Source: Dinoroseobacter sp. (GTDB taxonomy: Bacteria > Pseudomonadota > Alphaproteobacteria > Rhodobacterales > Rhodobacteraceae). Taken from it: a stretch of 64,000 nt of DNA. The number at the start of each line of letters is the position of its first letter. Position 1 is the stretch's first letter. Shown piece after piece: positions 6,708 through 58,294 of the stretch. Under the pieces are notes generated by a model. It made no database searches. It saw nothing but the letters and a program-made list of their open reading frames with translations, and was not told where the DNA came from. The DNA lies in the NCBI GenBank assembly GCA_017643385.1, contig JAEPNN010000005.1, positions 1 to 64,000 on the forward strand, read 5' to 3'. Position numbers and translations under genes: made by a program.

Positions 6708-7175
6708 CTAGACGGGAATCCCAAACCGCTTGTACAGAAAGCTCAGTAACCACGCCGGACCTATCAACAGAAATTGGATGTCTTGGAAGAAAGATGGCTT
6801 CTTGCCCTCTACCTTGTGACCCCAAAACTGTCCGACCCAAGCCAGCACGAAGAGCACCAAAGCAACCTGCCAAACGCTGAAGCCTGCGCTTTCGATCAGA
6901 AGAATGATCCAGTAGCTGACAATGGCATAAAGCGCGACGCCAACTGCAAGGGTTGGCGAAAGGACGAGATAGTAAACCAGCGAAGCGACAAGCACCATCG
7001 TTAGCCAGTTCAACCACAGTATGCTTGACATGAAACCCGGTTGAGGCAGTGCATAGAGCCCCGCCATAACCGTCCAGACAATAACCGGTACGCAAATCCA
7101 GTGGACGGCCTTGTTGGTCGCATTCTGGTGGCTTTCACCGTATTCCGCCAGCAAAGCTTCGATCTTGCGCGCCAT
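6708..7175 (-). CDS. Mpo1-like (DUF962) membrane protein
   Basis: This 155-residue protein has an N-terminal YGESHQNATNKAVHWICVP segment and about four hydrophobic helices, as in the DUF962/Mpo1 family. In yeast Mpo1 is an iron-dependent dioxygenase in 2-hydroxy fatty acid alpha-oxidation; the conserved histidines and asparagines near residues 16-25 fit metal binding. Function in bacteria is not settled. The ATG at 7175 is preceded by GGGGAGG; an upstream in-frame extension overlapping clpB is rejected. It lies 97 bases downstream of clpB, beyond a terminator-like hairpin. Confidence 0.85.
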   Translation of the reverse strand: MARKIEALLAEYGESHQNATNKAVHWICVPVIVWTVMAGLYALPQPGFMSSILWLNWLTMVLVASLVYYLVLSPTLAVGVALYAIVSYWIILLIESAGFSVWQVALVLFVLAWVGQFWGHKVEGKKPSFFQDIQFLLIGPAWLLSFLYKRFGIPV

Positions 7176-7207
7176 TTTCTGTCCTCCCCTGTTGGCTGAG
7201 CACAATA

Positions 7208-7243
7208 GGAAACGCCCGGCCCGCCGCAAAGCATGACCGGGCG
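7208..7243 (-). terminator. Rho-independent terminator after clpB
   Basis: On the minus strand CGCCCGG pairs with CCGGGCG and is followed by TTT. It lies 30 bases past the clpB stop codon and before the Mpo1-like gene. Confidence 0.6.
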
Positions 7244-7272
7244 TCATTTGAGTGAGGTCGATACCGAAACGA

Positions 7273-9888
7273 TTAATGCACAACGGCTTCCTCAGGCGGG
7301 CGCCGGTTCGAAGCTGATACGCGATCGCCAACAAGCAAACCATCTGCCGCAGCGCTGACCTGCACGATCGAACCATCCGCCACATCACCGGCCAGGATCA
7401 TCTCAGCCAATTGGTCCTGTAAAGCTCGCTGTATAACCCGCTTTAGAGGACGGGCGCCAAAGACCGGATCATACCCTTCTTCAGCCAGCCATTCACGGGC
7501 TGCGATGTCCAGATCGAGGCTGATCTGCCGCGCCGTAAGCCGCTTTTCGAGACGCTTCAACTGAATGTCGACGATTCCCGCCATATCGGCCCGAGCAAGC
7601 CGATCAAAGATGATCGTTTCGTCGAGACGATTCAGGAATTCAGGACGGAAATGCGCCCGGACCGCATCCATTACATCGCGCCTGGCCATGCTTGCATCCA
7701 CACCATCGGGCAGCTGACTGAGCGACTGCGCGCCAAGATTGGACGTCAGTACGATCAGCGTCTGCTTGAAATCCACTGTTCGTCCCTGACCATCAGTTAG
7801 CACACCGTCGTCCAGCACCTGCAAAAGTACGTTGAAGACATCTGGGTGCGCCTTCTCGACCTCGTCAAACAGAACCACCTGATACGGTCGGCGGCGCACC
7901 GCTTCGGTCAAAACGCCACCCTCATCGTAGCCCACATAGCCGGGAGGCGCGCCAATCAAGCGAGCCACCGCATGCTTTTCCATGAACTCCGACATATCAA
8001 TCCGAACCATGGCCTGATCATCGTCGAACAGAAACTCAGCAACAGCCTTCGTCAATTCGGTTTTGCCAACACCAGTTGGCCCGAGGAACAAGAACGAACC
8101 GAGAGGTCGGTTCTCGTCATTCAGTCCAGCACGAGCCCGACGCACCGCATTCGAAATCGCTTTCACAGCCGCACGTTGACCAATCACACGCTTGCCGATC
8201 TCATCTTCCATCCGAAGCAACTTGTCGCGTTCGCCTTCGAGCATCTTCGAGGTTGGAATACCCGTCCAGCGCTCCACCACGCTCGCAATCTGTTCAGGAC
8301 GAACCGCTTCTTCGACCATGACCTCTTCTTCACGGGATTCGGCTTCGGAAAGTTGCTTTTCCAGCTCCGGTATCACGCCGTAGGACAGTTCACCCGCTTT
8401 GCCGAGATCCCCCGCGCGCTTGGCCTGATCAAGCTCGGCGCGTGCGCGATCAAGTTGTTCTTTGAGGTTACGCGCAGCATCCAGCTTGTCCCGTTCGGCC
8501 TGCCATTGAGCGGTGAACGCTGCGGATTGTTGCTGCAAATCGGAAAGCTCACGTTCCAGTTTCGCCAATCGATCCTGGGATGCGCTATCGTCTTCTTTTT
8601 TCAGCGCTTCTGCCTCGATTTGTTTCTGCAGGATCTCACGGTCAAGCGCATCAAGTTCCTCTGGCTTGGAATCGACTTCCATACGAAGCCGAGAGGCAGC
8701 TTCATCCATCAAATCGATCGCTTTATCGGGCAGGAATCGGTCGGTGATGTAGCGATGGCTCAGCGTTGCAGCCGATACGAGTGCAGAATCGCTGATCCTG
8801 ACACCATGATGAAGTTCATACTTCTCTTTGATGCCACGCAGGATCGAGACAGTGTCTTCGACCGTAGGCTCCGAAACCACCACTGGCTGGAAACGACGGG
8901 CAAGTGCAGCATCTTTTTCTACGTGCTTGCGATACTCATCCAGCGTTGTTGCACCCACACAGTGCAGTTCACCGCGCGCCAACGCCGGTTTAATCAGGTT
9001 TGCTGCGTCCATCGCGCCATCAGTTTTACCTGCGCCCACCAGTGTATGCATTTCATCGATAAAAAGGATGATCTCACCGGCAGCTTCGGTCACTTCGGTC
9101 AGGATTGATTTCAAACGCTCTTCGAACTCACCGCGGTACTTTGTACCTGCAATCAGCGCGCCCATGTCCAGCGCCATCAGCTTCTTGTTGCGAAGGCTCT
9201 CGGGCACGTCCCCGTCGACAATCCGCAACGCAAGCCCTTCGGCAATTGCGGTTTTACCCACGCCCGGCTCCCCGATCAGTACTGGGTTGTTCTTCGTGCG
9301 CCGGGAAAGCACCTGCATCGCACGGCGGATTTCTTCGTCGCGTCCGATGATCGGATCAATCTTGCCGTCACGTGCCGCCGCCGTCAGATCGCGCGCATAC
9401 TTCTTCAAGGCCTCATAGGTCTCTTCTGCGCTGGCACTATCAGCGGTTCGACCCCCACGGATATCATTGATCGCGGCATTCAAGGCCTGCGCATTGACCG
9501 CGCCAGCTTCCATCGCTTCCTTTGCTTTGGATTTTACCATCGCAAGCGCCATCAGGACCCGTTCAACAGGTACGAAACTGTCGCCCGCTTTCTTAGCGAC
9601 TTTTTGCGACTCATCCAGAACGCGTCCCATCAACGGGTCGAGATAAAGCTGACCAGCATCTCCCGAGACTTTTGGCAACTTCGAAACTGCCATTTCAACG
9701 GCTTGCTTCACGCGCTCTGGCGATCCACCAGCACGTGAAATCAGGTTGGACGCCAACCCTTCTTCGTCATCCAGAATAGCTTTTAGCAGATGCTCCGGCA
9801 CCAAACGCTGGTGACCTTCGCGCATCGCAATTGTTTGGGCCGCCTGTAAGAAACCGCGCGACCGCTCCGTGAACTTTTCAAGGTCCAT
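7273..9888 (-). CDS. clpB: ClpB, ATP-dependent protein disaggregase
   Basis: This 871-residue AAA+ chaperone works with DnaK to pull aggregated proteins apart. Visible parts in order: Clp N-domain (about 1-145), first ATPase with Walker A GEPGVGKT at 206-213, a long coiled-coil middle domain (about 400-530, rich in Glu/Leu/Lys), the second ATPase with [10 protein letters not shown] near 609, and the C-terminal small domain. Length is normal for ClpB. The middle domain separates it from ClpA. The ATG at 9888 follows AAGGAG. A sigma-32-type promoter lies upstream at 9967-9993. Confidence 0.97.
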
Positions 9889-12122: not shown

Positions 12123-12983
12123 CTATTCGGCCGCCAACCCGACCGCGGGGCGGCCCAGATCAGCAATCTCTGCCATCACGCCTGTAAAGAGCTTGCGAAA
12201 GCTTTCAAAACCTTCGTGCGGTTTAATCGCGTATTCATCCATGTAAAGACCGCGGTCTATTTCCAATTGCACGACATGCACGCCCTGTGCAGGGCGCCCA
12301 TAGGCTTGAGTGATATACGCACCGGCGAAAGGCGCATTGCGCGCCGTAATTAACCCTGCAGACGCCAGTGCTGCCTCGATATGTTCAACGACCCCGCCAG
12401 AAGCGGCTGCGCCAAAGCGGTCTCCAAGGACTACATCCGGCCTTTGCCCAGTTCCATCCCGGAGTGTCGCGATTGCTTCGCGCGGCATGGAGTGACAATC
12501 CACCAGAACTGCATGCCCAAACTGCGCCTTTGTTTGATTCAGGATGTCCCTGAGCTTGCTATGGTAAGGCCGCCAATACTTGTGCAAGCGCATCTGGGCC
12601 TCGGAATAGGGAAGTTTACCCCGGTATATCGCTCTTCCATTTGAAACGACGCGGGGAATCACACCAAGGCCCGAAGCAACGCGAGGGTTGTGCCCCATCC
12701 GTGGCGCGCCCCGCACAACAGCAGAGTCGAGCTCATCCTCGGCACGATTCAGATCCAGATAGGCACGAGGCATAGTTGCTAGGATTGAATGCGCTCCCAA
12801 ATCAGGCGCTGCAGCAATCAATTCATCAACGAACGCATCTTCCGACGATCTCACACCCCGTTCATCCAGAATTGTTTGATTCAGGAAGGATTTTAGGTAA
12901 TTCCGTCCTGAATGTGGGGACGAAAAAACAACAGATGTGGTGCAGACCGGCGGACTGCGCAAAGTATATGCGGCGCTACTCAT
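12123..12983 (-). CDS. N-formylglutamate amidohydrolase family protein
   Basis: This 286-residue protein matches the HutG-like N-formylglutamate amidohydrolase family, which releases formate and glutamate in one branch of histidine degradation. Visible signatures are VVFSSPHSGRNY near the N-terminus, ATMPRAYLDLNRAEDELD, and LVDCHSMPRE around the active site, with histidine and acidic residues that fit a zinc centre. No other hut genes are nearby, so the physiological substrate is uncertain. It is convergent with dinB with only three bases between the stop codons. Confidence 0.85.
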   Translation of the reverse strand: MSSAAYTLRSPPVCTTSVVFSSPHSGRNYLKSFLNQTILDERGVRSSEDAFVDELIAAAPDLGAHSILATMPRAYLDLNRAEDELDSAVVRGAPRMGHNPRVASGLGVIPRVVSNGRAIYRGKLPYSEAQMRLHKYWRPYHSKLRDILNQTKAQFGHAVLVDCHSMPREAIATLRDGTGQRPDVVLGDRFGAAASGGVVEHIEAALASAGLITARNAPFAGAYITQAYGRPAQGVHVVQLEIDRGLYMDEYAIKPHEGFESFRKLFTGVMAEIADLGRPAVGLAAE

Positions 12984-13434: not shown

Positions 13435-15063
13435 TTAACGTCCAATAGCCTCTGCCAACATGCGAACAGCAGTTGCCTGGTCGACATAACCCGTGACTTC
13501 GATGTCCCGTGCCCGTTGAAAGCGGCGCACAGCTCGGCGCGTATTTTCGTCGAATTGACCGTCCACGCGTCCCGGATCCAAACCAAGTTCTGCCAAACGT
13601 CTTTCAGCCAGCAAACGGATGACCGGGTTTCCGAGAACCTGATTTTCTATCTCCGTCAAACGAGCGGTATCCACCTGCGCTTCCAATTCTGCGAGCGCCG
13701 CTTGCGCCTCGCCGACGAAGGAACCGTTGGGGTATCTTTCAAGGTAAAGGCGGTAAGATTCGGCAGACCCGTTTTGTCGAACTTCGTCCCAGAACAAACG
13801 CTCTTCAGCGCGCGCTTCACGCCTTGCCTGGCGCTCAAACTGGCGCAGGCGACGCTGGGCATCTTCGACATATAAACCGTCAGGGTAGCGCTCTAGATAT
13901 GACCGATAAGCTTCGGGCGTATCAGCGCGTTCCGTGCGCCTCCAGATGGTACCCTCGCGCGCCGCTTCAAGGCGTGCGCGCTCTTCAGCTTCTTCCTCCA
14001 GTTCGGCACGGCGATCTTCCGCCTGAGCATTCAACATCGCAAGCTGTGGGCGATCCAGATAGCCGCTGGCAAAAAGGTTATTGTCCCCCTGCCAATTGCG
14101 AATGCCGTTTCTTGTTCCACGACCAAATATCCCATCGATCCCGCGGGTGTCGTAGCCAAGCAAAACCAGCGCCCGCTGAATGGCGCGTCGCGTGTTCCGG
14201 TCAAGCCTCAAAGCCGCTTCAGCGGCTTCAGCTTCGCGCTGCGGGCGTTCTCTGATATCACTCAGCAGCGCGTCTGCCTCCGCTTTGAAAGCGCCTCGCG
14301 GATACCTTCGCAAATAGCTTTCAACGGCTTCGGACGTTCCGAGATCCTGCACAGCTGCCCAATATCCTTCCTCAATCAAGGCATCCGCATCTTGGGTGCT
14401 TCCCAAACTCTCGCCAAGGAACGGTGTTCGGTGCGAGACGAAACCCTCTACGGCGACCTCGCCGTCGAAGTTTCGGACGCCATCAAGCATGGGTGTCGTT
14501 TCGTCTAGGACGACCAGATCGACAAATTCGGTCACTGCCTCTGGAGTACCAGTAACCAGCGTCACGCCTTGCGGTATTTCGGTTCCACCGATCCCTTCAC
14601 GCCAGCGCTCATCTAAACGGCGCACCGACCCGCGTTCGGTACCGATCGCAACAACTGCTCCGCCAGGACGCGTCGCGGCAATCTGCATGATCTCAGGGAT
14701 CGAAAGCGCGTTGCGTGACATGCGCAATCCGTTTGTCTGGTTCGCTTCGGTTGGCAAATAAATGCTGTTTGAGCCACGGCTTACAACGTGACCAGCCAAT
14801 ACAAAGATCAGTCGGTCCGCATCGTCCAGCCGGTCCAGAACAGAATCGAGCACAAACTCCAGCTCTTCCCCGCTAACATCGCGCCCAGAAATCACGTCAA
14901 ACCCGGCTTGTCGTAATGGAAACTGAAGATCAAACACTGCATCAGCACCCGCAACAGTACCAGCGCGAGTGTGGTCACGATTTCCAAGCAGCACAGCAAC
15001 GTCGTTTGCAAGCGCTGAGCCTGCCCAGAGGCTCATAAGACCTGCCAACATAAAGATACGCAT
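13435..15063 (-). CDS. Secreted caspase-like fold protein with peptidoglycan-binding domains; catalytic cysteine missing
   Basis: This 542-residue exported protein has a signal peptide (about 1-19, ending SALA). Next is a caspase-like (C14) domain at about 20-200 with the family's Gly-His at VLAGHVVSRG (His92). The strand that normally ends in the nucleophile (ACR) instead reads AVVAIGTERG (about 137-145), so the cysteine is gone. Two peptidoglycan_binding_1-like segments follow, one around RNTRRAIQRALVLLGYDTRG and one at the C-terminus with RLAELGLDPGRVDGQFDENT. Between and before them are three copies of a YLRRYPxGxF-type helical repeat and a charged coiled-coil stretch. It is probably a periplasmic binding or scaffold protein rather than a protease. 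Confidence 0.85.
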   Translation of the reverse strand: MRIFMLAGLMSLWAGSALANDVAVLLGNRDHTRAGTVAGADAVFDLQFPLRQAGFDVISGRDVSGEELEFVLDSVLDRLDDADRLIFVLAGHVVSRGSNSIYLPTEANQTNGLRMSRNALSIPEIMQIAATRPGGAVVAIGTERGSVRRLDERWREGIGGTEIPQGVTLVTGTPEAVTEFVDLVVLDETTPMLDGVRNFDGEVAVEGFVSHRTPFLGESLGSTQDADALIEEGYWAAVQDLGTSEAVESYLRRYPRGAFKAEADALLSDIRERPQREAEAAEAALRLDRNTRRAIQRALVLLGYDTRGIDGIFGRGTRNGIRNWQGDNNLFASGYLDRPQLAMLNAQAEDRRAELEEEAEERARLEAAREGTIWRRTERADTPEAYRSYLERYPDGLYVEDAQRRLRQFERQARREARAEERLFWDEVRQNGSAESYRLYLERYPNGSFVGEAQAALAELEAQVDTARLTEIENQVLGNPVIRLLAERRLAELGLDPGRVDGQFDENTRRAVRRFQRARDIEVTGYVDQATAVRMLAEAIGR

Positions 15064-15105: not shown

Positions 15106-16320
15106 TCAATCGTAGATGCGTCGATCCTCGATCACCAATCCATCATTGGGCAGAGATCCCGGCGTGACAACCTCTACATTGCCCTTCAACTTCAGAGCTT
15201 CGTGAACATGCGCCTCAAAACCGGGATCACGCGCCATCGCCTCAATCTGCACAGTCATCGTGTCAGCATCCCCTTGCCGGTCGGCAATCACCCGCGCTTT
15301 CACAATTTCCGGGTGACGTTTGACCAGATCAGCCACCTGTTCGGGACGCACAAACATACCTTTGATCTTGGTGGTCTGATCAGCCCGCCCCATCCAACCT
15401 TTAATACGCATATTCGTGCGTCCGCAGGGAGATTGGCCAGCCAGTACCGCACTCATATCGCCGGTGGCAAAACGCACCAGCGGGTAATCAGGGTTCAGTG
15501 TCGTCACAACGACCTCGCCGACTTCCCCATCAGGAACCGGGTCACCTGTGCCCGGGCGAACGATCTCTACGATCACGCCTTCGTCCACGATCATACCTTC
15601 TTGCGCGTCGCTTTCATACGCAATGTTGCCCAGATCCGCGGTGGCATAGCATTGCAGACAAGCAATTCCGCGATCCTCGTAATAGGCTCGCAATTGCGGA
15701 AACAGCGCGCCACCTGAAACGGCTGCCTTCGCCAACTTCAGCGTCAGCCCCATTTCATCGGCTTTTTCCAAAATCACCTTCAGGTAGTCCGGTGTTCCCG
15801 CATATGCAGTAGTGCCAATGTCATGCGCTGCACGCGCTTGCAATTCAGTCTGACCGGTCCCTGCAGGAAGCACTGCGGCGCCAACGGCCTGCGCCGCATT
15901 CTCAAACATCATCCCCGCTGGGGTCAGATGATAGCCAAAGCAATTCTGCACAATGTCTCCGGGCCCTATCCCCGCAGCATTAGCAAAACGTCCCAGACGC
16001 CACCAGTTGCGGCTGGTTTGACCAGGCTCATAAATCGGGCCTGGACTTTGAAAGACGTGGGCAAAAGCGTGTTGGCTGAGCGTCGTCAGACCACCAAATG
16101 GTGCATTTGCAGACTGCGCTGCGCTTAGATCTGCCTTCCGTAGAACTGGCAATTCAGCAAGGGCTGCACGACCAGTAACTGATGCTGGATCGATCTCGGC
16201 AAGTCGATCGGCATTTCCATACAATTTTTGAGCCGTTTCGATGAGTTCCGGCAGGCAATCCGCCAAAGAACTTTCGCGCGCGTCTGTAGAACGTGTTTCG
16301 AGATCATCAAAATGCTTCAT
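15106..16320 (-). CDS. PaaK-like AMP-forming CoA ligase (phenylacetate-CoA ligase family)
   Basis: This 404-residue protein of the ANL superfamily resembles phenylacetate-CoA ligases, which activate an aryl or other carboxylic acid with ATP and CoA. The characteristic segments are TSRNWWRLGRFANAAGI, NCFGYHLTPAGMMFENA, CYATADLGNIAYES and the C-terminal lid MRIKGWMGRADQTTKIKGMFV (residue pattern near 300-320). It is slightly shorter than typical PaaK (about 430). It is the last gene of the transporter operon, 65 bases after the ATPase gene, suggesting that it activates the imported compound. Substrate not assignable. Confidence 0.85.
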   Translation of the reverse strand: MKHFDDLETRSTDARESSLADCLPELIETAQKLYGNADRLAEIDPASVTGRAALAELPVLRKADLSAAQSANAPFGGLTTLSQHAFAHVFQSPGPIYEPGQTSRNWWRLGRFANAAGIGPGDIVQNCFGYHLTPAGMMFENAAQAVGAAVLPAGTGQTELQARAAHDIGTTAYAGTPDYLKVILEKADEMGLTLKLAKAAVSGGALFPQLRAYYEDRGIACLQCYATADLGNIAYESDAQEGMIVDEGVIVEIVRPGTGDPVPDGEVGEVVVTTLNPDYPLVRFATGDMSAVLAGQSPCGRTNMRIKGWMGRADQTTKIKGMFVRPEQVADLVKRHPEIVKARVIADRQGDADTMTVQIEAMARDPGFEAHVHEALKLKGNVEVVTPGSLPNDGLVIEDRRIYD

Positions 16321-16385
16321 CTTCCAGCCTATTGTTTTTGCTCATTTCGCCCGTGAAATGCGCGGCTTGCATGATCAGAACAACG

Positions 16386-17210
16386 TTAGGCCAGCCACCG
16401 CTTTCGACGCCGGTACGACCGCACATCGCGGAAGGACTTCCGGCCCGCGTCTGATACGCCAAGGTAGAACTCTTTGACGTCAGGGTTCTCGCGCAGTTCG
16501 GCAGCTTTGCCTTCCATCACAACACGCCCGTTTTCAAGGATATAGCCTGTATGAGCGAAGCGGAGTGCCACATTGGTATTTTGTTCGGCCAAAAGAAACG
16601 AGACGCCCTCTTTCTCATTCAGGTTTTTCACGATGGCGAAGATCTCTTCAACCAGCTGGGGCGCCAGTCCCATGGAGGGCTCATCCAGCAAAATCATCTC
16701 AGGCTTTGACATCAGCGCACGACCAATCGCAGTCATCTGCTGTTCACCGCCAGACGTGTACCCCGCTTGAGATCGCCGCCGCTCCTTCAAACGCGGGAAA
16801 TAGGAATAGACTTTTTCGAGATCCGCATCGACTGCGCCGCGCCCATCGCGTCGCGTGTAAGCACCGGTCAGTAAGTTTTCTTCGACCGTGAGATGTTCGA
16901 AACAATGCCGGCCTTCCATCACCTGGATAACGCCGCGTTTGACCAGATCTGCTGGGTTCAGATGCTGCACGACCTCGCTATTATAGACGATCGACCCTTT
17001 GGTCACCTCGCCGCGTTCGGAATGCAGCAGGTTCGAAATTGCTTTCAGCGTTGTGGTCTTGCCAGCGCCATTACCTCCAAGAAGTGCGGTGATCCCACCC
17101 TTTGGAACACTCAGGGAGACACCTTTCAACACGAGGATCACATGGTTGTAGATCACTTCGATATTGTTGACTTCAAGCAGTGTGTCTTTGGTCGGTGCTG
17201 CATCAAGCAT
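16386..17210 (-). CDS. Branched-chain-type ABC transporter ATP-binding protein (LivF-like)
   Basis: This 274-residue cytoplasmic ATPase has Walker A GGNGAGKTTT near residues 45-54, signature SGGEQQMTAIGRAL, Walker B MILLDEPSMGLAP, and the LivF-type end HTGYILENGRVVMEG. It is about 30 residues longer than E. coli LivF, with a basic C-terminal tail. It works with the LivG-like ATPase at 21144 and the permeases at 18645 and 20108. It lies downstream of the binding-protein gene, separated by a strong hairpin at 17253-17280. Confidence 0.93.
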   Translation of the reverse strand: MLDAAPTKDTLLEVNNIEVIYNHVILVLKGVSLSVPKGGITALLGGNGAGKTTTLKAISNLLHSERGEVTKGSIVYNSEVVQHLNPADLVKRGVIQVMEGRHCFEHLTVEENLLTGAYTRRDGRGAVDADLEKVYSYFPRLKERRRSQAGYTSGGEQQMTAIGRALMSKPEMILLDEPSMGLAPQLVEEIFAIVKNLNEKEGVSFLLAEQNTNVALRFAHTGYILENGRVVMEGKAAELRENPDVKEFYLGVSDAGRKSFRDVRSYRRRKRWLA

Positions 17211-17252
17211 TGCGCGGCCTTTGCTACAATTCGCTTAAATTCTCAGTGGAAA

Positions 17253-17280
17253 CCGGCGGCAGCAGGGATGCCGCCGCCGG
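17253..17280 (-). terminator. Intercistronic hairpin after the substrate-binding protein gene
   Basis: CCGGCGGC-rich arms of about 12 bases pair across a 4-base loop, followed by TTTCC on the minus strand. It sits between the binding-protein stop (17297) and the ATPase start (17210). Such hairpins often stabilise the binding-protein message and let only part of transcription continue, which would give more binding protein than ATPase. Confidence 0.6.
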
Positions 17281-17296
17281 CGTGATCAGACTTGCC

Positions 17297-18589
17297 TTAG
17301 CAATCGTCGTTCGTTGGCCACGGCGCGTTTGCTGCTGCGTAGTCAGCTGCCGCCGCTGCGATCAATGGTTTGATCGCGTCCATATCTGACGTCAGATGAT
17401 CTGAGGCTTGAACAAACTTCTCGCCGTCCCACTGCAGCATCCAGCCACCCGCGTGACCAGTGTGGTTGGAGCACGAAGTCGAGAACGGAGACACCATACC
17501 GGTGGCACCCAGCTCAGCCAGACGATCCGCGGTCAGGTTGATATTTTCCAGACCCCAGCGCAGTTGCGATGCAGAAATCTCAGAAACACCGAACTCAGCC
17601 TGTGCATTGCCGATGGCTTCTGCAAGCATCATGCTCATAACCACACCACGCTGATAGAAGACGCCAGAACGCTCTTCGTCAGATGCCAGCGAGTCGCCTG
17701 CGGATACAACGTGCTCGTTGACCGCCTGCATTACACCACTGTCGTTTTGTGGCTGCGACCATGAGATCGAGCGATAACCAGCGCCATCTGCACCAACCTG
17801 CGCGAGGTCCGCGTCATGACCAGACCACCACACGCCAATAAACTGATCCATCGGATAGCGGGTTTTCACCGCTTCGGTGATTGCACCTGCGTTCATCGCA
17901 CCCCAGCCCCACATGACGACGTAGTCAGGGCGCTCACGGCGGATTTGCAGCCACTGGGCTGACTGGTTCTGCATTTCCGAAAGACCCACTGGGATCGGCA
18001 GGAATTCAAAGCCATGCTCGGCCGCCATGTTCTCAAAGAACGGGATAGGCTCTTTGCCGTAAGGGTGGTCCAGATGCAGGAAGCCGATCTTTTTACCCGC
18101 AAGACCTGCAGGTGTTCCACCACCAAGTTCGTTCAGAATCATGGATGCTGCGTCCCAGTACCCAGCTGGCATATTGAACGCCCACTGGAAAACCTTGCCG
18201 TCAGACATTGGTGAGAAACCATAGCCCGGCGCAAGGATTGGGATTTCGTCTACGTTGGTCAGCGGCAGAACCTGCAAGGTGATACCGGTTGACCAAGGCT
18301 GGGTCACGATCGCCTGACCTTTGGTGCGCTCATAGCATTCGACGCCTTTTTCAGTGGAATAGCCGGTTTCGCATTCCTCAAAGTTCACAGGCACACCGCC
18401 GATGCCGCCATCACGAGCGTTCAGCATCAGCATGTAATCGCGCTGACCGTTCATCAGCGGGATACCAGTCGCCGCAAATGGACCAGTCCGGTAGCTGAGG
18501 TTGGGGGTATAGAGCTCTTGCGCCATCGACGCGGTCGCTGTGACCGCTGCAATCGCACCCGCAAGGGCCAGTTTGGTTAGGTTCTTCAT
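17297..18589 (-). CDS. ABC transporter periplasmic substrate-binding protein (LivK-like, type 1 fold)
   Basis: This 430-residue periplasmic protein has a signal peptide (about 1-23, cleaved after SMA). The body is a type 1 periplasmic binding protein, with the segment IGFLHLDHPYGKEPIPFFENM and the later YQRGVVMSMMLAEAI. It is longer than amino-acid-binding LivK (about 345 mature). Two cysteines in EECETGYSTEKGVECYERT could form a disulfide. The context of two CoA ligases suggests the ligand is a carboxylic acid, but the sequence does not identify it. Confidence 0.92.
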   Translation of the reverse strand: MKNLTKLALAGAIAAVTATASMAQELYTPNLSYRTGPFAATGIPLMNGQRDYMLMLNARDGGIGGVPVNFEECETGYSTEKGVECYERTKGQAIVTQPWSTGITLQVLPLTNVDEIPILAPGYGFSPMSDGKVFQWAFNMPAGYWDAASMILNELGGGTPAGLAGKKIGFLHLDHPYGKEPIPFFENMAAEHGFEFLPIPVGLSEMQNQSAQWLQIRRERPDYVVMWGWGAMNAGAITEAVKTRYPMDQFIGVWWSGHDADLAQVGADGAGYRSISWSQPQNDSGVMQAVNEHVVSAGDSLASDEERSGVFYQRGVVMSMMLAEAIGNAQAEFGVSEISASQLRWGLENINLTADRLAELGATGMVSPFSTSCSNHTGHAGGWMLQWDGEKFVQASDHLTSDMDAIKPLIAAAAADYAAANAPWPTNDDC

Positions 18590-18644
18590 TCTCTTCCTCC
18601 CATGAAAGATAGATGATTGCTCTGTTATTATTGGGCCGCCCCGC

Positions 18645-19721
18645 TTAGTGCGGGAACGGCCAGATCAAAAGTTTCTCGCGGATCAGTGCCCAAAGGCGCG
18701 CCAGACCGTGCGGCTCGACGATCAGGAAAAAGATGATCAGCGCACCAATGATCATGACGTTGATATGCTCAACTGTCGCGGACTTTATCTCAAGTCCGAC
18801 AACGCCCGGGACAGTGTTCAGGATAACAGGCAGGGCAACAATAAGAATTGCACCCAGCCAGTTGCCTAAGATGGAACCCAAACCACCGATAATTGCGATG
18901 AAGAGCACGCGGAACGACAGCTCAATATCAAACAGGTTCGGTTCGGCGGCGCCGCGCCACAGGAAGACGAACATCGCCCCTGCCACGCCAACGATATAGC
19001 TGGAGACCGCAAACGCCATCAGTTTGGACTTCAGCAGATTGATCCCGATAAGTTCGGCCGCGATGTCCATATCGCGTGTCGCTTTCCAGATGCGCCCCTG
19101 ATTTCCACGTGTCAGATTGATGACCAGCACTGTGATCAGTGTCACCACGATCAGAATGAAGTAATACTGAGCCATCGAGGTCGCGAGCGGACCAGCCACC
19201 GCAATCCCGAAGACATCGAGGTTCGGCACCTGGATAGCGCCAGAGGCATTGTAGTTGTACAGCCATGCCCATTTTTCAAAGAGCCAGATCAGAAAGAACT
19301 GCGCTGCAAGCGTCGCAATCGCCAGATAGAATCCCTTGATCCGCAAACTCGGCAAGCCAAAAGCAACGCCCACCATAGCGCTGAAGGTTCCCGACAACAG
19401 CACCGCAATGAACAAGTTGAGGTCAGGGAAGATTGTAACCATCTTGTAGCAGGCGTAGGCGCCAACCCCCATGAATGCGCCGGTGCCCAAAGACAACTGC
19501 CCCGCATAGCCCGTCAGAATGTTCAGACCCGTCGCGGCCAGTGCATAGATCAGCACAGGGATCAAAAGCGTCTGGAAGACAAATTCAGATGCTGTCAGTG
19601 GCAAAATGAGCCACGCAAAAAGCAGAATGATCCCCAGAAGCCACGCGTCTTGTTGGACCGGGAACAGCGCCTGATCCTTCTGGTAGCTCGTCTTGAACTG
19701 TCCTGCGATGCGATAGAGCAT
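18645..19721 (-). CDS. Branched-chain-type ABC transporter permease (LivM-like)
   Basis: This 358-residue inner-membrane permease has about eight to ten hydrophobic segments. The LivM hallmarks are LNILTGYAGQLSLGTGAFMGVGAYA and LPSLRIKGFYLAIATLAAQF (residue patterns near 65-90 and 125-145), plus the coupling-helix segment GRIWKATRDMDIAAELIGIN. The ATG overlaps the stop of the small membrane gene upstream (TAATG), showing tight translational coupling. Confidence 0.93.
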   Translation of the reverse strand: MLYRIAGQFKTSYQKDQALFPVQQDAWLLGIILLFAWLILPLTASEFVFQTLLIPVLIYALAATGLNILTGYAGQLSLGTGAFMGVGAYACYKMVTIFPDLNLFIAVLLSGTFSAMVGVAFGLPSLRIKGFYLAIATLAAQFFLIWLFEKWAWLYNYNASGAIQVPNLDVFGIAVAGPLATSMAQYYFILIVVTLITVLVINLTRGNQGRIWKATRDMDIAAELIGINLLKSKLMAFAVSSYIVGVAGAMFVFLWRGAAEPNLFDIELSFRVLFIAIIGGLGSILGNWLGAILIVALPVILNTVPGVVGLEIKSATVEHINVMIIGALIIFFLIVEPHGLARLWALIREKLLIWPFPH

Positions 19722-19885
19722 TACTCGTTCTTCCCTTTCACCTGTCCTGCAACCCAGAACAGAAGCGCCGCAGCGCTGATCCCTCCTGCCAGCCAGAGCC
19801 AGCGCATTCCGTCTGGACCGAAGCCCATCAGGATGCTGATCACCAAAGCGAGCATTCCCGCGCTGGAAACCAGCTTGGAAACCAA
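19721..19885 (-). CDS. Small two-helix membrane protein inside the transporter operon (TTG start)
   Basis: A 54-codon frame fills the gap between two other operon genes. A TTG at 19885 is preceded by GGAGAG with good spacing, and a later in-frame ATG at 19855 would give 44 residues. The product has hydrophobic stretches around MLALVISILMGFG and WLWLAGGISAAALLFWVAG and a basic end QVKGKNE. Its stop overlaps the permease start (TAATG). It begins one base after the stop of the small gene at 19887. No family is recognised; it could be an accessory microprotein of the transporter. Confidence 0.65.
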   Translation of the reverse strand: MVSKLVSSAGMLALVISILMGFGPDGMRWLWLAGGISAAALLFWVAGQVKGKNE

Positions 19886-19886
19886 C

Positions 19887-20090
19887 TCAGACCTCTCCGG
19901 TCAGCAGGTCCCGGTCGTATCGCCGCTGCAACCAAGGCGTTGCAAGCGATCCCCCCACCATGCCGGCAAATGCCACCAACATGAGAGGAATAATTTTGGC
20001 GGCATCAGACGCCGTCACCGCCAATGCACCGAACGCCCATAAGCCACACCATGCAATCACGGCTACCAATGCGATCAGTGTTGTCTTCAT
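19887..20090 (-). CDS. Small two-helix membrane protein in the transporter operon
   Basis: This 67-residue protein has two hydrophobic helices (about residues 4-24 and 32-50) and a charged C-terminus (LQRRYDRDLLTGEV). It starts 17 bases after the LivH-like permease stop and ends one base before the TTG start of the next small gene. No known family is recognised. Its placement between the two permease genes on the same strand, with no room for another promoter, supports a real gene. Confidence 0.72.
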   Translation of the reverse strand: MKTTLIALVAVIAWCGLWAFGALAVTASDAAKIIPLMLVAFAGMVGGSLATPWLQRRYDRDLLTGEV

Positions 20091-20107
20091 CTCAAATCAC
20101 CCAAACC

Positions 20108-21067
20108 TTAAACACGCTCGATGATTTTCTCGCCAAAGAGCCCTTGTGGCCGGAACAAGAGCACGCCCAAGGCAAGCACATAAGCAAACCACACTTCGGT
20201 ATTGCCGCCCAATAGCGGCTGTCCCCAGTAGATCTCGAACATCTTCTCCAGAACACCGATGGCCAGGCCTCCGATGATGGCACCGGTGATGGACTCGAGC
20301 CCACCGAGCATGAGCACGGGCAGCGCCTTAAACGCGATGATCTCCAATGCAAATGAGACCCCTGCACGCGCGCCCCACGCAATGCCCGTAACAAGCGCGA
20401 TGATGCCCGAGACGAACCAGACCAACACCCAGATTGTTTGCAGGCTAATGCCCACAGACAGCGCGGCCTGATGGTCATCGCCCAGTGCCCGGATCGCGCG
20501 GCCCATCTGCGTCTTGCCCAGAAAAACAAGCAGTGCACAGACAAGAAGCGCTGCTGATATAACGACCGTGATATCGAGATGCTGCAAAAGTAGGAAACCG
20601 CCAAAGGGCTCCAGCACCACGTCTCCCGTCGGGATACCCAGCTCTGAGGTGATCATGACTTTGTTTTCACCACCAAAGATCGTCTCCCCAGTCCCAACAA
20701 GAAACAGCGTAATACCAATCGTTGCCATGAAAAGGATGATATCAGGCTGGCCTACAAGGGGACGCAGAACGATCCGCTCGATGGCCACAGCGATGATGAA
20801 CATCACGACAAGTGTCAGTGCGACTGACACCCAGGCCGGAATGCCCATGGCATGAAGCCCAACAAGGGTCAGTGCCGCGAAAACCACCATGATGCCTTGG
20901 GCAAAGTTAAAGATGCGGCTGGAGCGGAAGATCAACACGAAACCAAGTGCGATCAGGGCATACAGCACCCCCGAGACCAGCCCTTCCCAGATTACCTGCA
21001 TAAGGAAATCAGGGGCCGCGACCATATCTGCGAAAGGTTCTACAAAGATTTTCGACAGCATTTCCAT
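20108..21067 (-). CDS. Branched-chain-type ABC transporter permease (LivH-like)
   Basis: This 319-residue inner-membrane permease has about eight hydrophobic helices. LivH hallmarks include SGVLYALIALGFVLIFRSSR and FNFAQGIMVVFAA near the N-terminus and the coupling segment GRAIRALGDDHQAALSVGI. The start at 21067 (MEMLSK) has AAGGGGG some 12 bases upstream; a second ATG two codons later is possible. It lies 76 bases downstream of the LivG-like ATPase. Confidence 0.93.
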   Translation of the reverse strand: MEMLSKIFVEPFADMVAAPDFLMQVIWEGLVSGVLYALIALGFVLIFRSSRIFNFAQGIMVVFAALTLVGLHAMGIPAWVSVALTLVVMFIIAVAIERIVLRPLVGQPDIILFMATIGITLFLVGTGETIFGGENKVMITSELGIPTGDVVLEPFGGFLLLQHLDITVVISAALLVCALLVFLGKTQMGRAIRALGDDHQAALSVGISLQTIWVLVWFVSGIIALVTGIAWGARAGVSFALEIIAFKALPVLMLGGLESITGAIIGGLAIGVLEKMFEIYWGQPLLGGNTEVWFAYVLALGVLLFRPQGLFGEKIIERV

Positions 21068-21143
21068 ACTTAGACGGCCCCCTTCTGGTGCCGGTGCGTA
21101 AACCGACGCGAATTATCTACAGTGGCGAGAATTAGGTCATTCA

Positions 21144-21962
21144 TCAGTGTGACACCCCCAGATAGGCGTCAATTACAGCCTGATTGTTGCGCACATCATC
21201 TGGCGCGCCATCCCCAATTTTCTTGCCGTAATCCATCACGACCACACGATCGGACAGGTCCATGACAACGCCCATATCGTGCTCGATCAGGACAATCGTG
21301 GTGCCAAATTCATCGTTCACATCAAGGATAAATCGGGACATGTCCTCTTTTTCCTCGACATTCATGCCAGCCATGGGCTCATCGAGAAGCAGGATCTGCG
21401 GGTCAGCGGCCAATGCCCGTGCAAGCTCAACACGCTTTTTCAGACCATATGGCAATCTGCCCACAGGCGTTTTACGAATGTTCTGAATCTCGAGAAAATC
21501 AATGACCTTCTCGACCTTCTCGCGATTTTCGATCTCTTCGGCTTGCGCTTTGCCCCACCACAAAGCCTGACTGATGACAGACGCGTTCATGTGTGTCAGA
21601 CGCCCCGTCATCACGTTATCCAGAACGGTCATACCCTCGAACAACGCAATATTCTGAAACGTCCGGGCAATCCCCTGGCGCGCGACCTGATAGGGTTTCA
21701 TCGGTGGGCGCTTCTTGCCACGATACCAAATTTCACCGATCTGCGGCGTGTAGAACCCAGAGATCACGTTCAGCATCGACGATTTCCCAGCACCGTTTGG
21801 TCCGATAATCGCTCGAATCTCGCCTTCACGGATATCGAACGAGATATCCTTAATTGCGGTTACGCCCCCAAATTTCAGGGTGATATCGCGCATATCCATG
21901 ACAACATTGCCAATCGTGCGGCCGTCTGCTGTGACATAGCTTTCTGGGCTCATGTCATTCAT
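21144..21962 (-). CDS. Branched-chain-type ABC transporter ATP-binding protein (LivG-like)
   Basis: This 272-residue ATPase has Walker A GPNGAGKSSM, the LivG-specific NVISGFYTPQIGEIW and ARTFQNIALFEGMTVLDNVM, and Walker B ILLLDEPMAGMN. The signature motif is degenerate (VGRLPYGLKKRVELARAL instead of LSGGQ), a known feature of the LivG group. The extra segment RGKKRPPMKPYQVARQG is present. The ATG at 21962 follows directly on the TGA of the small membrane gene. Confidence 0.93.
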   Translation of the reverse strand: MNDMSPESYVTADGRTIGNVVMDMRDITLKFGGVTAIKDISFDIREGEIRAIIGPNGAGKSSMLNVISGFYTPQIGEIWYRGKKRPPMKPYQVARQGIARTFQNIALFEGMTVLDNVMTGRLTHMNASVISQALWWGKAQAEEIENREKVEKVIDFLEIQNIRKTPVGRLPYGLKKRVELARALAADPQILLLDEPMAGMNVEEKEDMSRFILDVNDEFGTTIVLIEHDMGVVMDLSDRVVVMDYGKKIGDGAPDDVRNNQAVIDAYLGVSH

Positions 21963-22211
21963 TCACGCAATCCCCCGCGCTTTACGACCCTGTCGAAACA
22001 CAAAGCTTCCGACAACGCCGTAGACAAACAAAAGTCCCAAGGACCATAAGAAATGATCGGCCCAAAGTGCGGGCAATCCAAAGATCAGGCCCGCAACACC
22101 ACACACGCCGACAGCCCCGCCCTGCGCGATATCGGCATATCTCGTCAGATGCCGCCCTATCACGTAGCAAGCCCCCAACCCGAGGACGAAGAAGAGCGCT
22201 CCAACAATCAC
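21963..22211 (-). CDS. Small membrane protein in the transporter operon (GTG start)
   Basis: This is an 82-residue protein with about three hydrophobic helices (FFVLGLGACYVIG, VGVCGVAGLIFGLPALW, LWSLGLLFVYGVVGSFVF) and a basic end (RQGRKARGIA). The GTG at 22211 overlaps the TGA of the preceding small gene (GTGA), which fixes the start better than an upstream ATG whose extension is cysteine-rich and overlaps that gene in another frame. Its stop abuts the LivG-like ATG. No known family is recognised. Confidence 0.68.
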   Translation of the reverse strand: MIVGALFFVLGLGACYVIGRHLTRYADIAQGGAVGVCGVAGLIFGLPALWADHFLWSLGLLFVYGVVGSFVFRQGRKARGIA

Positions 22212-22351
22212 GCCGTCGCCGCCATGATCAAAGCGGCGTTTGCAGTAACCAGCAAGGTGTAGGTCACCGTTCGCGCAATCAAATAGGCAATCAACAGCAG
22301 AAGGAGCACTGCCAGCCACCGCAACCATTTATTCCCGATACGGCTCAGCAC
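22208..22351 (-). CDS. 47-residue membrane microprotein in the transporter operon (GTG start)
   Basis: A 47-codon frame begins with a GTG that overlaps the stop of the acyl-CoA ligase (TAGTG) and ends at a TGA overlapping the next GTG (GTGA). The product has a basic start (MLSRIGNKWLRW), one long hydrophobic helix (LAVLLLLLIAYLIA) and a second moderately hydrophobic stretch to the end. The chained overlaps on both sides are the main support. No family recognised. Confidence 0.6.
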   Translation of the reverse strand: MLSRIGNKWLRWLAVLLLLLIAYLIARTVTYTLLVTANAALIMAATA

Positions 22352-24324
22352 TATTCTGCCGCCTCTACTTTGGGCGTAGAGGTTACAACAGTTTCCGCAT
22401 TTTCAACCTGCAACGTCGCCTTCAAAAGCCCCTTGCGTCCATCTTCGTAGGTGACCTCAGTTTCTGTGCTGATCGACGATGACCCATCATAAAGGGCCGT
22501 TATTAGATCATCGAACTTCTCTTCGATGATACGACGGCGCACTTTTCGGGTACGCGTAAGTTCACCATCATCCGCATCCAGTTCCTTGTGCAAAACAAGG
22601 AAGCGGTGGATCTGACACCCGGACAGCATCGCGTCCGCTGCGACCGAGCGGTTCACCTCTTCGATGTTTGCCTTGATTTGCGAGATCACGTCTGGGTGCT
22701 GAGACAGTTCTTGGTAACTGGCATAGGCGATGTTGTTGCGCTCTGCCCAGTTGCCAACCGCCGTCAGGTCAATATTGATGAAGGCAGCGCAGGTTTCGCG
22801 CCCACTTCCAAAGACCACAGCCTCCAGAATGTTCGGGAAGAACTTCAGTTTGTTTTCGACATATTTCGGCGCAAAGAGTGCGCCCGACGCCATCTTTCCA
22901 ACGTCCTTTGCGCGATCGATGATCCGGAGGTGGCCCGTATCTTCTTCGATGAAGCCTGCATCACCAGTCGCAACCCATCCTTCTGCGTCCTTGGTTGAAG
23001 CGGTGGATTCCGGGTTCTTGTAGTATTCCACAAAGACGCCGGGGGAACGATAATAGACCTCACCACTGTCGGCGATCTTGATCTCCACCCCAGGTGACGG
23101 CACCCCGACAGTATCCGGCCGGACCTCATGATCGGGCTGCTGCGTGATGAAGACGCTGGCTTCGGTCTGGCCATACAGCTGCTTTAGGTTGATCCCAAGC
23201 GCACGGTAGAAGTCGAAAATTTCAGGCCCAATGGCCTCCCCAGCGGTATAACCTACACGAACGCGCGTAAAGCCCAGCGCATTCTTGAGCGGTCCGTAGA
23301 CAAAGAACTCGCCCAACCGGTAGTTCAATCGGTCCATGAAGGAGACAGGCTTTTCATCGAGGATTGCAGGGCCAACGCGGCGCGCGACCTCCATGTAACG
23401 ATCAAAGAGCCACTTCTTGAAAGAACCGGCATCTTCCATACGGATCATGATATTCGTCAACTGCGTCTCAAAAATCCGTGGCGGCGCGAAGTAGTATGTT
23501 GGGCCGATTTCACGCAAATCTGTCATCATGGTGTCCGAGGATTCCGGACAATTGACACAGAAGGCCGTCCAATACGCCTGCCCAATCGAGAAAATGAAGT
23601 CACCAACCCAAGCCATCGGCAGATAGGCAAGCACTTCGTCACCGGCACGCAACTTATCGAATTCAGAAGAATGTCTGGCGGTTTCAATGATGTTGTCGTT
23701 TGAAAGCACCACGCCCTTCGGACGCCCAGTGGTGCCCGATGTGTAAAGCATGACGCATGTCGTGCTTCCGTTTTGTTCTGCCATGCGATCACGAAGCGTT
23801 GCTTCATGCTTCCCGGCATGCTCTCGACCACGTGCTTGTACGTCTGCGAATGGCGACAGCTTGCCATGGTCGTATTTTCGCATGCCCCTTGGATCTAGAT
23901 AAATCATATGGTCCAGGCCATTGAGGCGATCCTGAACCTCGAGTACTTTGTCGACCTGCTCCTGATCCGCAGCGATAATGAAGCGTGCACTACAGTGGTC
24001 GAGCACGTAGGCGATCTCTTCTCCAACCGCGTCCTGATACAGCGGCACAGGGACGGCACCGACCATCTGTGCGGCAACCATTGACCAATAAAGGTAAGGA
24101 CGGTTGCGACCGATTATGGCGATGTGATCGCCGGGGTTTGCCCCGAGCTCGAGAAGACCAAGGGCAAGCGCTCGGGTTTCCGCTTGGGCTTCGACCCAAG
24201 TCCAGCTTTGCCAAATACCGTAGTCTTTCTCGCGATAGGCAGCTTTGCTGCCATAACGATCAGCGTTCCGCGCCAGCAGACGCGGAATCGTATCGAGCTG
24301 ACCCGAAGTCGTCCCGTTGGTCAA
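22351..24324 (-). CDS. AMP-forming acyl-CoA ligase (long-chain fatty acid-CoA ligase-like), first gene of the transporter operon
   Basis: This 657-residue ANL-family ligase has the ATP/AMP signature TSGTTGRPKGVV near residues 196-207, YGQTEASVF near 390, and the VATGDAGFIEEDTGHLRIIDR hinge (residue pattern around 452-472). The C-terminal lid lysine region is TRTRKVRRR. It activates a carboxylic acid to its CoA thioester. The start codon is TTG at 24324, backed by GGGAGG eight bases upstream. It probably acts on the transported substrate together with the PaaK-like ligase at the other end of the operon. Similar ligase-plus-Liv clusters are known for aromatic or fatty acid uptake, so the substrate class is inference. 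Confidence 0.9.
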   Translation of the reverse strand: MTNGTTSGQLDTIPRLLARNADRYGSKAAYREKDYGIWQSWTWVEAQAETRALALGLLELGANPGDHIAIIGRNRPYLYWSMVAAQMVGAVPVPLYQDAVGEEIAYVLDHCSARFIIAADQEQVDKVLEVQDRLNGLDHMIYLDPRGMRKYDHGKLSPFADVQARGREHAGKHEATLRDRMAEQNGSTTCVMLYTSGTTGRPKGVVLSNDNIIETARHSSEFDKLRAGDEVLAYLPMAWVGDFIFSIGQAYWTAFCVNCPESSDTMMTDLREIGPTYYFAPPRIFETQLTNIMIRMEDAGSFKKWLFDRYMEVARRVGPAILDEKPVSFMDRLNYRLGEFFVYGPLKNALGFTRVRVGYTAGEAIGPEIFDFYRALGINLKQLYGQTEASVFITQQPDHEVRPDTVGVPSPGVEIKIADSGEVYYRSPGVFVEYYKNPESTASTKDAEGWVATGDAGFIEEDTGHLRIIDRAKDVGKMASGALFAPKYVENKLKFFPNILEAVVFGSGRETCAAFINIDLTAVGNWAERNNIAYASYQELSQHPDVISQIKANIEEVNRSVAADAMLSGCQIHRFLVLHKELDADDGELTRTRKVRRRIIEEKFDDLITALYDGSSSISTETEVTYEDGRKGLLKATLQVENAETVVTSTPKVEAAE

Positions 24325-56737: not shown

Positions 56738-58072
56738 TTATATTACCGGTGCAGGTGCGGGTGCCGGCGGCATTGGGATCGTATCTGGATAGGCCTCCAG
56801 TTCGATCTCGCTGCCATCCAGTTCAACACCCTGAACAACCATCACCAATGCGCCATCCATACGGATTTCAGTGTCACCATCCACAATGAACAGTTCGACA
56901 TCAGGGATATCACCGCCCCCATCTGGCTCTTTGTAGTACAAGCGGATCGCATCATCTTCGGCGGTGTAGTCCTGCACGATGGCAGGGAACCCACCCGTGA
57001 AGTCACCCGCAGCGAAGGTATCATCGCCCTCGCCACCAATGCCAACGTCGTCGCACCCCATCAGAAGTGTATCGTCGCCATCACCACCCTGCAATTTGTC
57101 GGCATCATCGGTGTCTTGGAACATGCCAGTTGTCTGATCGGTCCAGAGACCCACCAGCACGTCATCACCTTGGCCGCCCCGCATGTCATCCTTGCCGAAG
57201 TTACCAAATAAGGTATCCGCACCATCGCCACCGTTGAGGAAATCGTTCCCGTCGCCCCCGAAGAGAACGTCGTCCCCGTCGTTTCCATAAACGCGGTCTG
57301 CTTGGTCGCCGCCATAAGCTACGTCGTCACCGTCTCCGCCAGAAAGCGTATCTTTGCCGCTTCCGCCCACGAGCACGTCTTCGCCGTCGCCACCAAGCAA
57401 TCGGTCATTGCCTGCGCCGCCTCCGACGATGTCGTCGCCATCACCGCCAGACACCAGATCACGACCCGTACCCCCGGATACAAGGTCGTTGCCATCATAC
57501 CCGTAGACGCGGTCAGCACCGCTACCGCCGTAGACCTCGTCATTGCCGGCACCGCCACGAACAATGTCGTTGCTGGTTCCGCCGATCACGATATCATCGC
57601 CTTCGGCTCCATCGACATCATCTTCACCGGAGCCTCCGTCTACGTAGTCAGCGCCTTCGTTTCCGTTCAGGAGATCATTGCCACTCCCGCCGAAAATGTT
57701 GTCTTTGCCCGGACCACCATTTGCCGTGTCGTCACCAGGGTTGCCGTAGATGACGTCGTCGCCTTCATTACCAGCTAGATAATCATCGCCTGCTTTACCT
57801 GTGAGGTAATCGTTGCCGATACGACCCCGCAGAACATCGTCCCCCGCGCGACCGTTAATGTAGTCGTCCCCAGACGTTCCACCAAGAAGAGGGTCATCGC
57901 CATTGGTGCCGCGAATCTCGTTCAAAAGACTCAAGTCATCATCAAGCGGGCTATCGGGTTCTGCAGGTGGTGCAAAATCGGTCTCGTCTTCTTCCGGTGT
58001 GCCGTCCGGCAGAACAAAAGATACGGCAGTCCCTGCGAACAAAAGGGCAAGCAGCCCAGCAATCCCCAACAT
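56738..58072 (-). CDS. Membrane-anchored RTX calcium-binding protein, paralogue 2
   Basis: This protein of about 444 residues has an N-terminal transmembrane helix (MLGIAGLLALLFAGTAVSFV), an acidic linker (GTPEEDETDFAPPAEPDSPL), and the longest RTX block of the three, about 55-330, for example GGAGNDRLLGGDGEDVLVGG. A C-terminal domain beginning GEGDDTFAAGDFTGGFPAIV and ending in a Pro-rich tail follows. The start at 58072 has AGGAG nine bases upstream; a TTG at 58093 is less likely. Its linker and first repeat resemble paralogue 1. Confidence 0.88.
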   Translation of the reverse strand: MLGIAGLLALLFAGTAVSFVLPDGTPEEDETDFAPPAEPDSPLDDDLSLLNEIRGTNGDDPLLGGTSGDDYINGRAGDDVLRGRIGNDYLTGKAGDDYLAGNEGDDVIYGNPGDDTANGGPGKDNIFGGSGNDLLNGNEGADYVDGGSGEDDVDGAEGDDIVIGGTSNDIVRGGAGNDEVYGGSGADRVYGYDGNDLVSGGTGRDLVSGGDGDDIVGGGAGNDRLLGGDGEDVLVGGSGKDTLSGGDGDDVAYGGDQADRVYGNDGDDVLFGGDGNDFLNGGDGADTLFGNFGKDDMRGGQGDDVLVGLWTDQTTGMFQDTDDADKLQGGDGDDTLLMGCDDVGIGGEGDDTFAAGDFTGGFPAIVQDYTAEDDAIRLYYKEPDGGGDIPDVELFIVDGDTEIRMDGALVMVVQGVELDGSEIELEAYPDTIPMPPAPAPAPVI

Positions 58073-58294
58073 TTGTGTAACTCCTACGTACAAATCCCCA
58101 GTGGGGCAACGGTATAGAAAGCTGGCGATTGAGGCAGTGTATTCTGAATTTAGTCTATATTTTGCCGTAATTTAGCAGGTTTCGTTCAACAATTCAGCGC
58201 AGTGCATATTTATTGTTTCAGGTATTAACACGACCTTAACGTTTCGCCCTACCACCACTCGAATCGCGACACAGAGCTTCGATACGGCATTGGC

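Follow-up and report, generated by a model that had tools for sequence, protein, structure and literature searches.

The minus-strand gene at positions 13435-15063 of the window, by which we mean the whole 64,000-nucleotide stretch of Dinoroseobacter sp. DNA analysed here, belongs to a family of pseudo-orthocaspases, present in many Roseobacter-group relatives, that we read, with a probability of about 0.55, as wall-anchored proteins of exported type in which a dead p20 domain serves as a non-cutting scaffold, adaptor or sensor. Computation establishes the caspase fold, the loss of the catalytic residues in the members examined, the architecture, the purifying selection and the lack of association with either photosynthesis genes or other C14 proteins, and the results support the description of the window protein itself as an exported-type, putative cell-wall-binding protein with a non-catalytic caspase fold. 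The dead caspases described so far mostly accompany live ones or, where bacterial, make up a group supposed to be tied to photosynthesis. Here, selection maintains the dead domain in many genera, mostly in genomes with no other strong C14 match (77 of 119), and the family is well suited to the question of what role is left to a caspase fold unable to cut.

Architecture of the protein

The open reading frame, taken from the ORF listing of the window, encodes 542 amino acids, and a purine-rich stretch resembling a ribosome-binding site lies before its start. Its N-terminus, MRIFMLAGLMSLWAGSALA followed by ND, reads by eye as a predicted Sec-type signal peptide (residues 1-19; 15007..15063, minus strand, as for all features of the protein), with an AxA cleavage pattern before Asn20 and with Ala19 in 70 of the 88 aligned family members, in agreement with the signal peptide proposed in the first-pass annotation. 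Residues 20-214 (14422..15006) are assigned to the pseudo-caspase (C14/p20) domain from the AlphaFold2 model, its fold match to the MALT1 paracaspase and the match of the family profile to the same protein. Within this domain lie Gly91-His92, the site of the catalytic His (14788..14793), Glu143, in the column of the catalytic Cys (14635..14637), and PQGVT, residues 164-168 (14560..14574), which is the best-conserved run of the dead domain, its five residues being kept in 84, 78, 87, 85 and 72 of the 88 members. The Gly-His pair and the strand AVVAIGTERG (residues 136-145) were both found where that annotation had located them.

The segment C-terminal of the p20 part matches the repeat and peptidoglycan-binding profiles built in this work, and what had been noticed as repeats and two peptidoglycan-binding segments resolves into three repeats, recognized by our own profiles, and two PG_binding_1 stretches, recognized by Pfam as well (96.7 bits in the window protein against a cut-off of 23; whole-genome coordinates agree). 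Repeat 1, of a YLxRYPxG, BamD/TPR-like type and helical in the model (residues 233-270; 14254..14367), is followed by the first PG_binding_1 domain (residues 278-341; 14041..14232), with a weak fold likeness to SltB3/SleB, then by repeat 2 (residues 373-408; 13840..13947), repeat 3 (residues 423-460; 13684..13797) and, at the end of the protein, the second PG_binding_1 domain (residues 472-538; 13450..13650). PG_binding_1 is matched in 30/30 family members at E<=0.01. Pfam describes this domain as ‘putative’, and peptidoglycan binding is here a prediction. The likeness of the repeats to BamD is weak, the YfiO/BamD profile matching 15 of 30 members. Residues 228-542 are predicted to be all-helical (pLDDT 85.7, pTM 0.50); when this model was searched by fold against the PDB, nothing reached E<=0.001, BamD and peptidoglycan-binding domains ranking high with weak scores, among them the SltB3/SleB peptidoglycan-binding folds (probability 1.00, E about 0.1-0.3). 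The number of repeats varies within the family: the member L195 (genome G124; ORF 7031-9121, plus strand) carries seven YLxRYPxG-type repeats in comparison with the three of the window protein, one before and six between its two peptidoglycan-binding domains.

The caspase fold

Taken from its sequence alone, the window protein gives a weak match to caspases: the Pfam Peptidase_C14 profile covers residues 22-102 at E 0.0025 and 18.0 bits, under the cut-off of 21.4, and phmmer reaches MALT1 at E 0.0009. The same Pfam profile matches 21 of 30 family members at E<=0.01. A profile built from 33 family members, including the window protein, reaches MALT1 among PDB sequences at E 1.9e-9, followed by caspase-1, an ancestral effector caspase and caspase-4 at 3e-4 to 6e-3. 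The AlphaFold2 model of residues 20-262 (pLDDT 76.9, pTM 0.74), for which five sequences were the only input and two of the five models stayed near pLDDT 50, has MALT1 as its top Foldseek match (E 8.9e-9), and in VIA-align, a re-examination of Foldseek's own matches, it superposes on MALT1 with Z 15.2 and rmsd 2.8 over 168 aligned residues, while caspases, procaspases and a plant metacaspase follow at about Z 12-13. The caspase identity is clear because of the family profile and the fold together, and profile, model and fold search all place the window protein among proteins with the caspase-hemoglobinase (p20) fold; the structure prediction suggested earlier as a check therefore did yield a caspase fold.

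Loss of the catalytic residues

The alignment joined 88 family members, a subset of the matches from the family and order genome samples with four from a separate search, to 47 other alphaproteobacterial C14 proteins. L036, L037 and L121, which duplicate loci in use or the family, and L172, a repeat of L141, were excluded before counting; L077-L101 come from genomes already represented and served for neighbourhoods only, and L193, L195, L177, L179 and L196 stand outside the 88.

In the column of the catalytic Cys, a Cys occurs in 0/88 family members and in 42/47 other C14 proteins, a comparison in which the family was gathered by similarity to a Cys-less profile, so that a Cys-bearing orthologue could sit among the other C14 proteins. 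None of these 47 has two strong family-type peptidoglycan-binding matches, many of their loci being incomplete. The family has at this position Asp (28), Glu (27, including Glu143 of the window protein), Ala (7), Ser (7), Thr (5), Gly (5), Asn (3) or others (6). The Asp of the DxC motif, two residues before, is likewise found in 0/88 family members against 45/47 other C14 proteins. No Cys lies elsewhere in the domain among the 88 aligned homologues, the one Cys in all 88 stretches being that of L022, at the signal-peptide junction, and the catalytic Cys is absent from each of five further members read one by one, with Ala in L196. The alignment of homologues proposed as a check thus shows the Cys to be missing throughout the members examined, and the reading of the domain as non-catalytic agrees with the absence of both Cys and DxC Asp from a modelled caspase fold.

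The catalytic His has a less uniform history. It is kept in 37/88 family members, with Arg in 36/88, whereas 45/47 of the other C14 proteins have it; on a quick tree the state of this column requires at least 16 changes, of which the starred branches force 5. The Gly-His pair pointed out in the first-pass annotation is therefore real in the window protein (His92), but it is the Gly, kept in 88/88, and not the His after it, that is a trait of the family. With one or both residues of the dyad substituted, the family falls within the pseudo-orthocaspases as defined in PMC6426788.

The surroundings of the active site have changed too. A regular expression for a substrate-loop motif of the DG...SPFT type found it in 0/88 family members (residues 130-205 searched) and in 31/47 other C14 proteins (residues 130-230). 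The spacing between the next strand's conserved Gly and a Pro-Gly is most often 22 residues in the family (37 of the 44 members, out of 88, with both marks) and 34 in the other C14 proteins (9 of the 10, out of 47, with both marks). The counterpart of PQGVT in true orthocaspases, by alignment, is the AP-x-GT(L/F)I strand. The best-conserved residues of the domain are mostly glycines, prolines and core positions, and no polar residue is invariant among the 88, the best kept being a Tyr at the position of residue 31 of the window protein (80/88; His in that protein itself) and Gln165 (78/88).

Five of the other alphaproteobacterial C14 proteins also are without the catalytic Cys (L040, L048, L051, L060 and L062; Ala in three and Gly in two), and they are placed among ordinary C14 proteins on the quick tree, apart from the family.

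Selection on the dead domain

In 20 within-genus pairs, which share sequences and are not independent, dN/dS is 0.05-0.29 for the dead domain and 0.00-0.23 for the rest of the protein; the simple method used saturates in the 9/20 pairs where the dS of the domain is >= 1. Because these ratios lie far below 1, we conclude that the dead domain is under purifying selection. In 16/20 pairs dN is higher in the domain than in the rest, and the domain may therefore be a spacer with little specific function, a reading weighed below.

Genomic context

Upstream, 42 bases before the start, lies an AMP-binding, acyl-CoA ligase-like gene (15106..16320, minus strand), which closes a branched-chain-type ABC transporter cluster that reaches 24324, and downstream an N-formylglutamate amidohydrolase gene (12123..12983, minus strand). 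Neighbourhoods were counted by tblastn with the window's own neighbours in 44 loci, some of which end at contig ends. The AMP-binding and ABC transporter genes are found upstream on the same strand in 29/44, the N-formylglutamate amidohydrolase in 28/44 and dinB in 26/44; the AMP-binding gene is absent, within the bases covered, from 15/44. A synteny based on the greedy choice of the longest ORFs was dropped, having missed the gene in 13/45 stretches, since GC-rich DNA has long antisense ORFs.

Where the AMP-binding gene adjoins, a median of 32 bases separates the two genes, with <=100 in 30/33 loci (including four added after the 44-locus count), and co-transcription is therefore likely. The transporter genes also occur without the family gene, both within the window's genus and in others: nine loci with the AMP-binding gene and no family match (L184-L191 and L194) have the AMP-binding and a second ATP-binding gene in 9/9 and the N-formylglutamate amidohydrolase in 8/9, while the genome of L196, at L192, has the AMP-binding gene alone. 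The tie of the family gene to the operon is thus positional, perhaps transcriptional, and non-obligate. An explanation of the function through the operon was rejected, since the AMP-binding and ABC genes are found both with and without the family gene.

Two other observations concern the window itself. The transporter cluster at 15106-24324 (minus strand) lies between two AMP-binding genes, one long and one short, the short one scoring under Pfam's cut-off, and is kept in many related loci; and a 451-residue protein with many RTX calcium-binding nonapeptide repeats is encoded at 56738-58093 (minus strand).

Origin of the family

On quick trees, in which many forks are open, the family forms one side of a branch with SH-aLRT 99 (49 rows) and 97 (53 rows). 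Catalytically intact proteins with a C14 domain, repeat and PG_binding domain in that order occur in other alphaproteobacterial families (L047, the same as L200; L054 and L199, both of one genome), and the likely ancestor would be a catalytically intact protein of this orthocaspase-repeat-PG_binding kind. A possible intermediate between true orthocaspases and the family is L196 (4065-5888, plus strand), from genome G004 of the window's taxonomic family. It has the family architecture and keeps GH and the Asp, with Ala for Cys (VDAAQ in comparison with LDACR in true orthocaspases); it adjoins the family with a support of only 60, and the rows nearest to it by path are mostly ordinary C14 proteins. 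The simplest history would be one in which the Cys was lost first, then the pocket and loop, and then the His in several lineages. Genome G001 was considered as a carrier of an intact orthologue at the locus and rejected, as the gene there (L177) is a further-eroded member without the Gly-His; the strong C14 match of this genome (E 1.9e-34) is presumably another gene.

Distribution

With the domain profile at >= 102 bits, 119 of 295 genomes (294 genera) of the window's taxonomic family are carriers. Few candidates were scored per genome in each search, and the score separates imperfectly, since the 119 include G004, with the possible intermediate, and leave out the eroded members of G001 and G074, which score < 102 bits. 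A search with the window protein reaches 157/295 genomes at E<=0.001, ordinary C14 proteins included. Among 289 genomes sampled from the class, of which four belong to the window's taxonomic family, no match outside that taxon spanned the full length, the best scoring 81 bits and those listed stopping by about position 162 of the 198 of the domain profile; for the full-length profile, the best outside match among those listed has 109 bits and covers positions 223-356 of 547. In the sample of the order (149 genomes), a gap in scores falls between 93 and 85 bits.

The photosynthesis genes pufLM are present in 122/295 genomes, and they are not associated with the family (47/119 carriers and 75/176 non-carriers; OR 0.88, p 0.63; 49/121 when G001 and G074 are added by hand). 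Nor are other C14 proteins, at thresholds that are choices and that a divergent active caspase could escape: a C14 match at E<=1e-11 is found in 42/119 carriers and 67/176 non-carriers (OR 0.89, p 0.71), and at E<=1e-20 in 33/119 and 62/176 (OR 0.71, p 0.20). In 40/119 carriers no C14 match is seen at E<=0.001, and because of this weak Pfam C14 score the family may be overlooked.

Function and alternative explanations

In the reading that we prefer, the protein would sit in the periplasm on the cell wall, the dead domain would be a protein- or peptide-binding platform without enzymatic action, used as a scaffold, adaptor or sensor, and the repeats would add contact surface. The operon neighbours, which are transport and acyl-CoA genes with no wall genes among them, count against a role at the wall. 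A more detailed version, which we put forward tentatively and consider rather doubtful as a whole, is that of a single-origin lineage of Rhodobacteraceae type, about one third of it unseen by the standard C14 profile, in which the former substrate groove has been rebuilt round PQGVT into a wall-anchored peptide sensor involving neither an active caspase nor photosynthesis. The possible alternative that deserves most attention, though it too is well short of an even chance, is a plain structural protein that binds the wall, its caspase fold being folded but inert and serving as a spacer or for dimerisation. The disappearance of both the active site and the substrate-loop motif, the glycines, prolines and core positions that dominate the conserved residues and the faster dN of the domain all suit such a protein; it accounts less well for a dN/dS so far below 1 and for PQGVT and other positions being held although the 32 members compared have only 21-39% identity to the domain of the window protein.

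Other roles for the domain appear improbable. The presence of Asp or Glu in the Cys column of 55/88 members, in a protein that also has peptidoglycan-binding domains, would suggest that the old active site has been rebuilt as a different enzyme, this acidic residue working on peptidoglycan or peptides. This is an unlikely outcome: ten other residues (A, S, T, G, N, L, K, Y, P and F) occupy the column in 33/88, the flanking columns are partly acidic, the acidic state requires at least 18 changes on the quick tree, which has many weak forks, and no invariant polar residue accompanies it. The new enzyme is not our main reading because the Cys column is too variable. About as improbable is the decoy role raised in the first-pass annotation, here taken as that of a decoy or regulator of a catalytically active caspase in the same cell, on the pattern of c-FLIP-L and caspase-8; it could apply to the 42 carriers that also have a C14 match at E<=1e-11, but it is disfavoured by the 77/119 that have none, by the lack of association and by the window's own genome, in which no C14 match besides the window protein is seen at E<=0.001, a search that a divergent active caspase could escape. 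Least probable, and very unlikely in our view, is a function linked to photosynthesis, as PMC6426788 proposes for pseudo-orthocaspases: the window's genome does have pufLM, but carriers have these genes no more often than non-carriers. The scaffold, adaptor or sensor at the wall remains our preferred reading.

Comparison with known systems

The closest counterparts in architecture are the intact orthocaspases L047 (L200), L054 and L199, in which a C14 domain is likewise followed by a YLxRYPxG repeat and then by PG_binding; they differ in keeping GHG and DACR and in having one PG_binding domain each instead of two, the locus of L054 being incomplete. By solved fold and by sequence profile the closest protein is the MALT1 paracaspase, which has no peptidoglycan-binding domain and is an active human enzyme with Ig domains.

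Pseudo-orthocaspases have been surveyed in PMC6426788, whose available text counts 582 in Alphaproteobacteria, only 14 of them in Rhodobacterales, and gives as common architectures prolonged tails without known domains, TPR, and trypsin-like plus DUF4384. Among the proteins that it describes are some with His-Ala or other dyads and a subgroup bearing TPR, and some of its carriers have no active counterpart; the c-FLIP-L/caspase-8 analogy is named there too. Our family shares with these proteins the p20 caspase fold and the substituted His-Cys dyad, and differs from them in its peptidoglycan-binding domains, a term that does not occur in that text, and in having no link to pufLM. The same paper proposes a link with photosynthesis, and its Discussion limits alphaproteobacterial pseudo-variants to photosynthetic organisms; the 72/119 carriers without pufLM speak against this limit. 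The pseudo-orthocaspase of Synechocystis, SyOC, whose deletion leads to higher tolerance to oxidative stress (PMC7889975), also has a dead p20, but it is cyanobacterial and the abstract mentions no peptidoglycan-binding domain.

The pairing of the two kinds of domain has a precedent in PMC3501461, where a putative peptidoglycan-binding domain is counted in 11 prokaryotic caspase homologues. Some of these 11 proteins, or of the 14 from Rhodobacterales in PMC6426788, may belong to our family. The open-access literature, in the portions available, yielded no paper on the architecture of the family, and those of PMC7901474 do not mention it either. We therefore regard the family as an apparently undescribed form of the known pseudo-orthocaspases, bigger in this group than had been reported, with an architecture of its own and free of a photosynthesis link.
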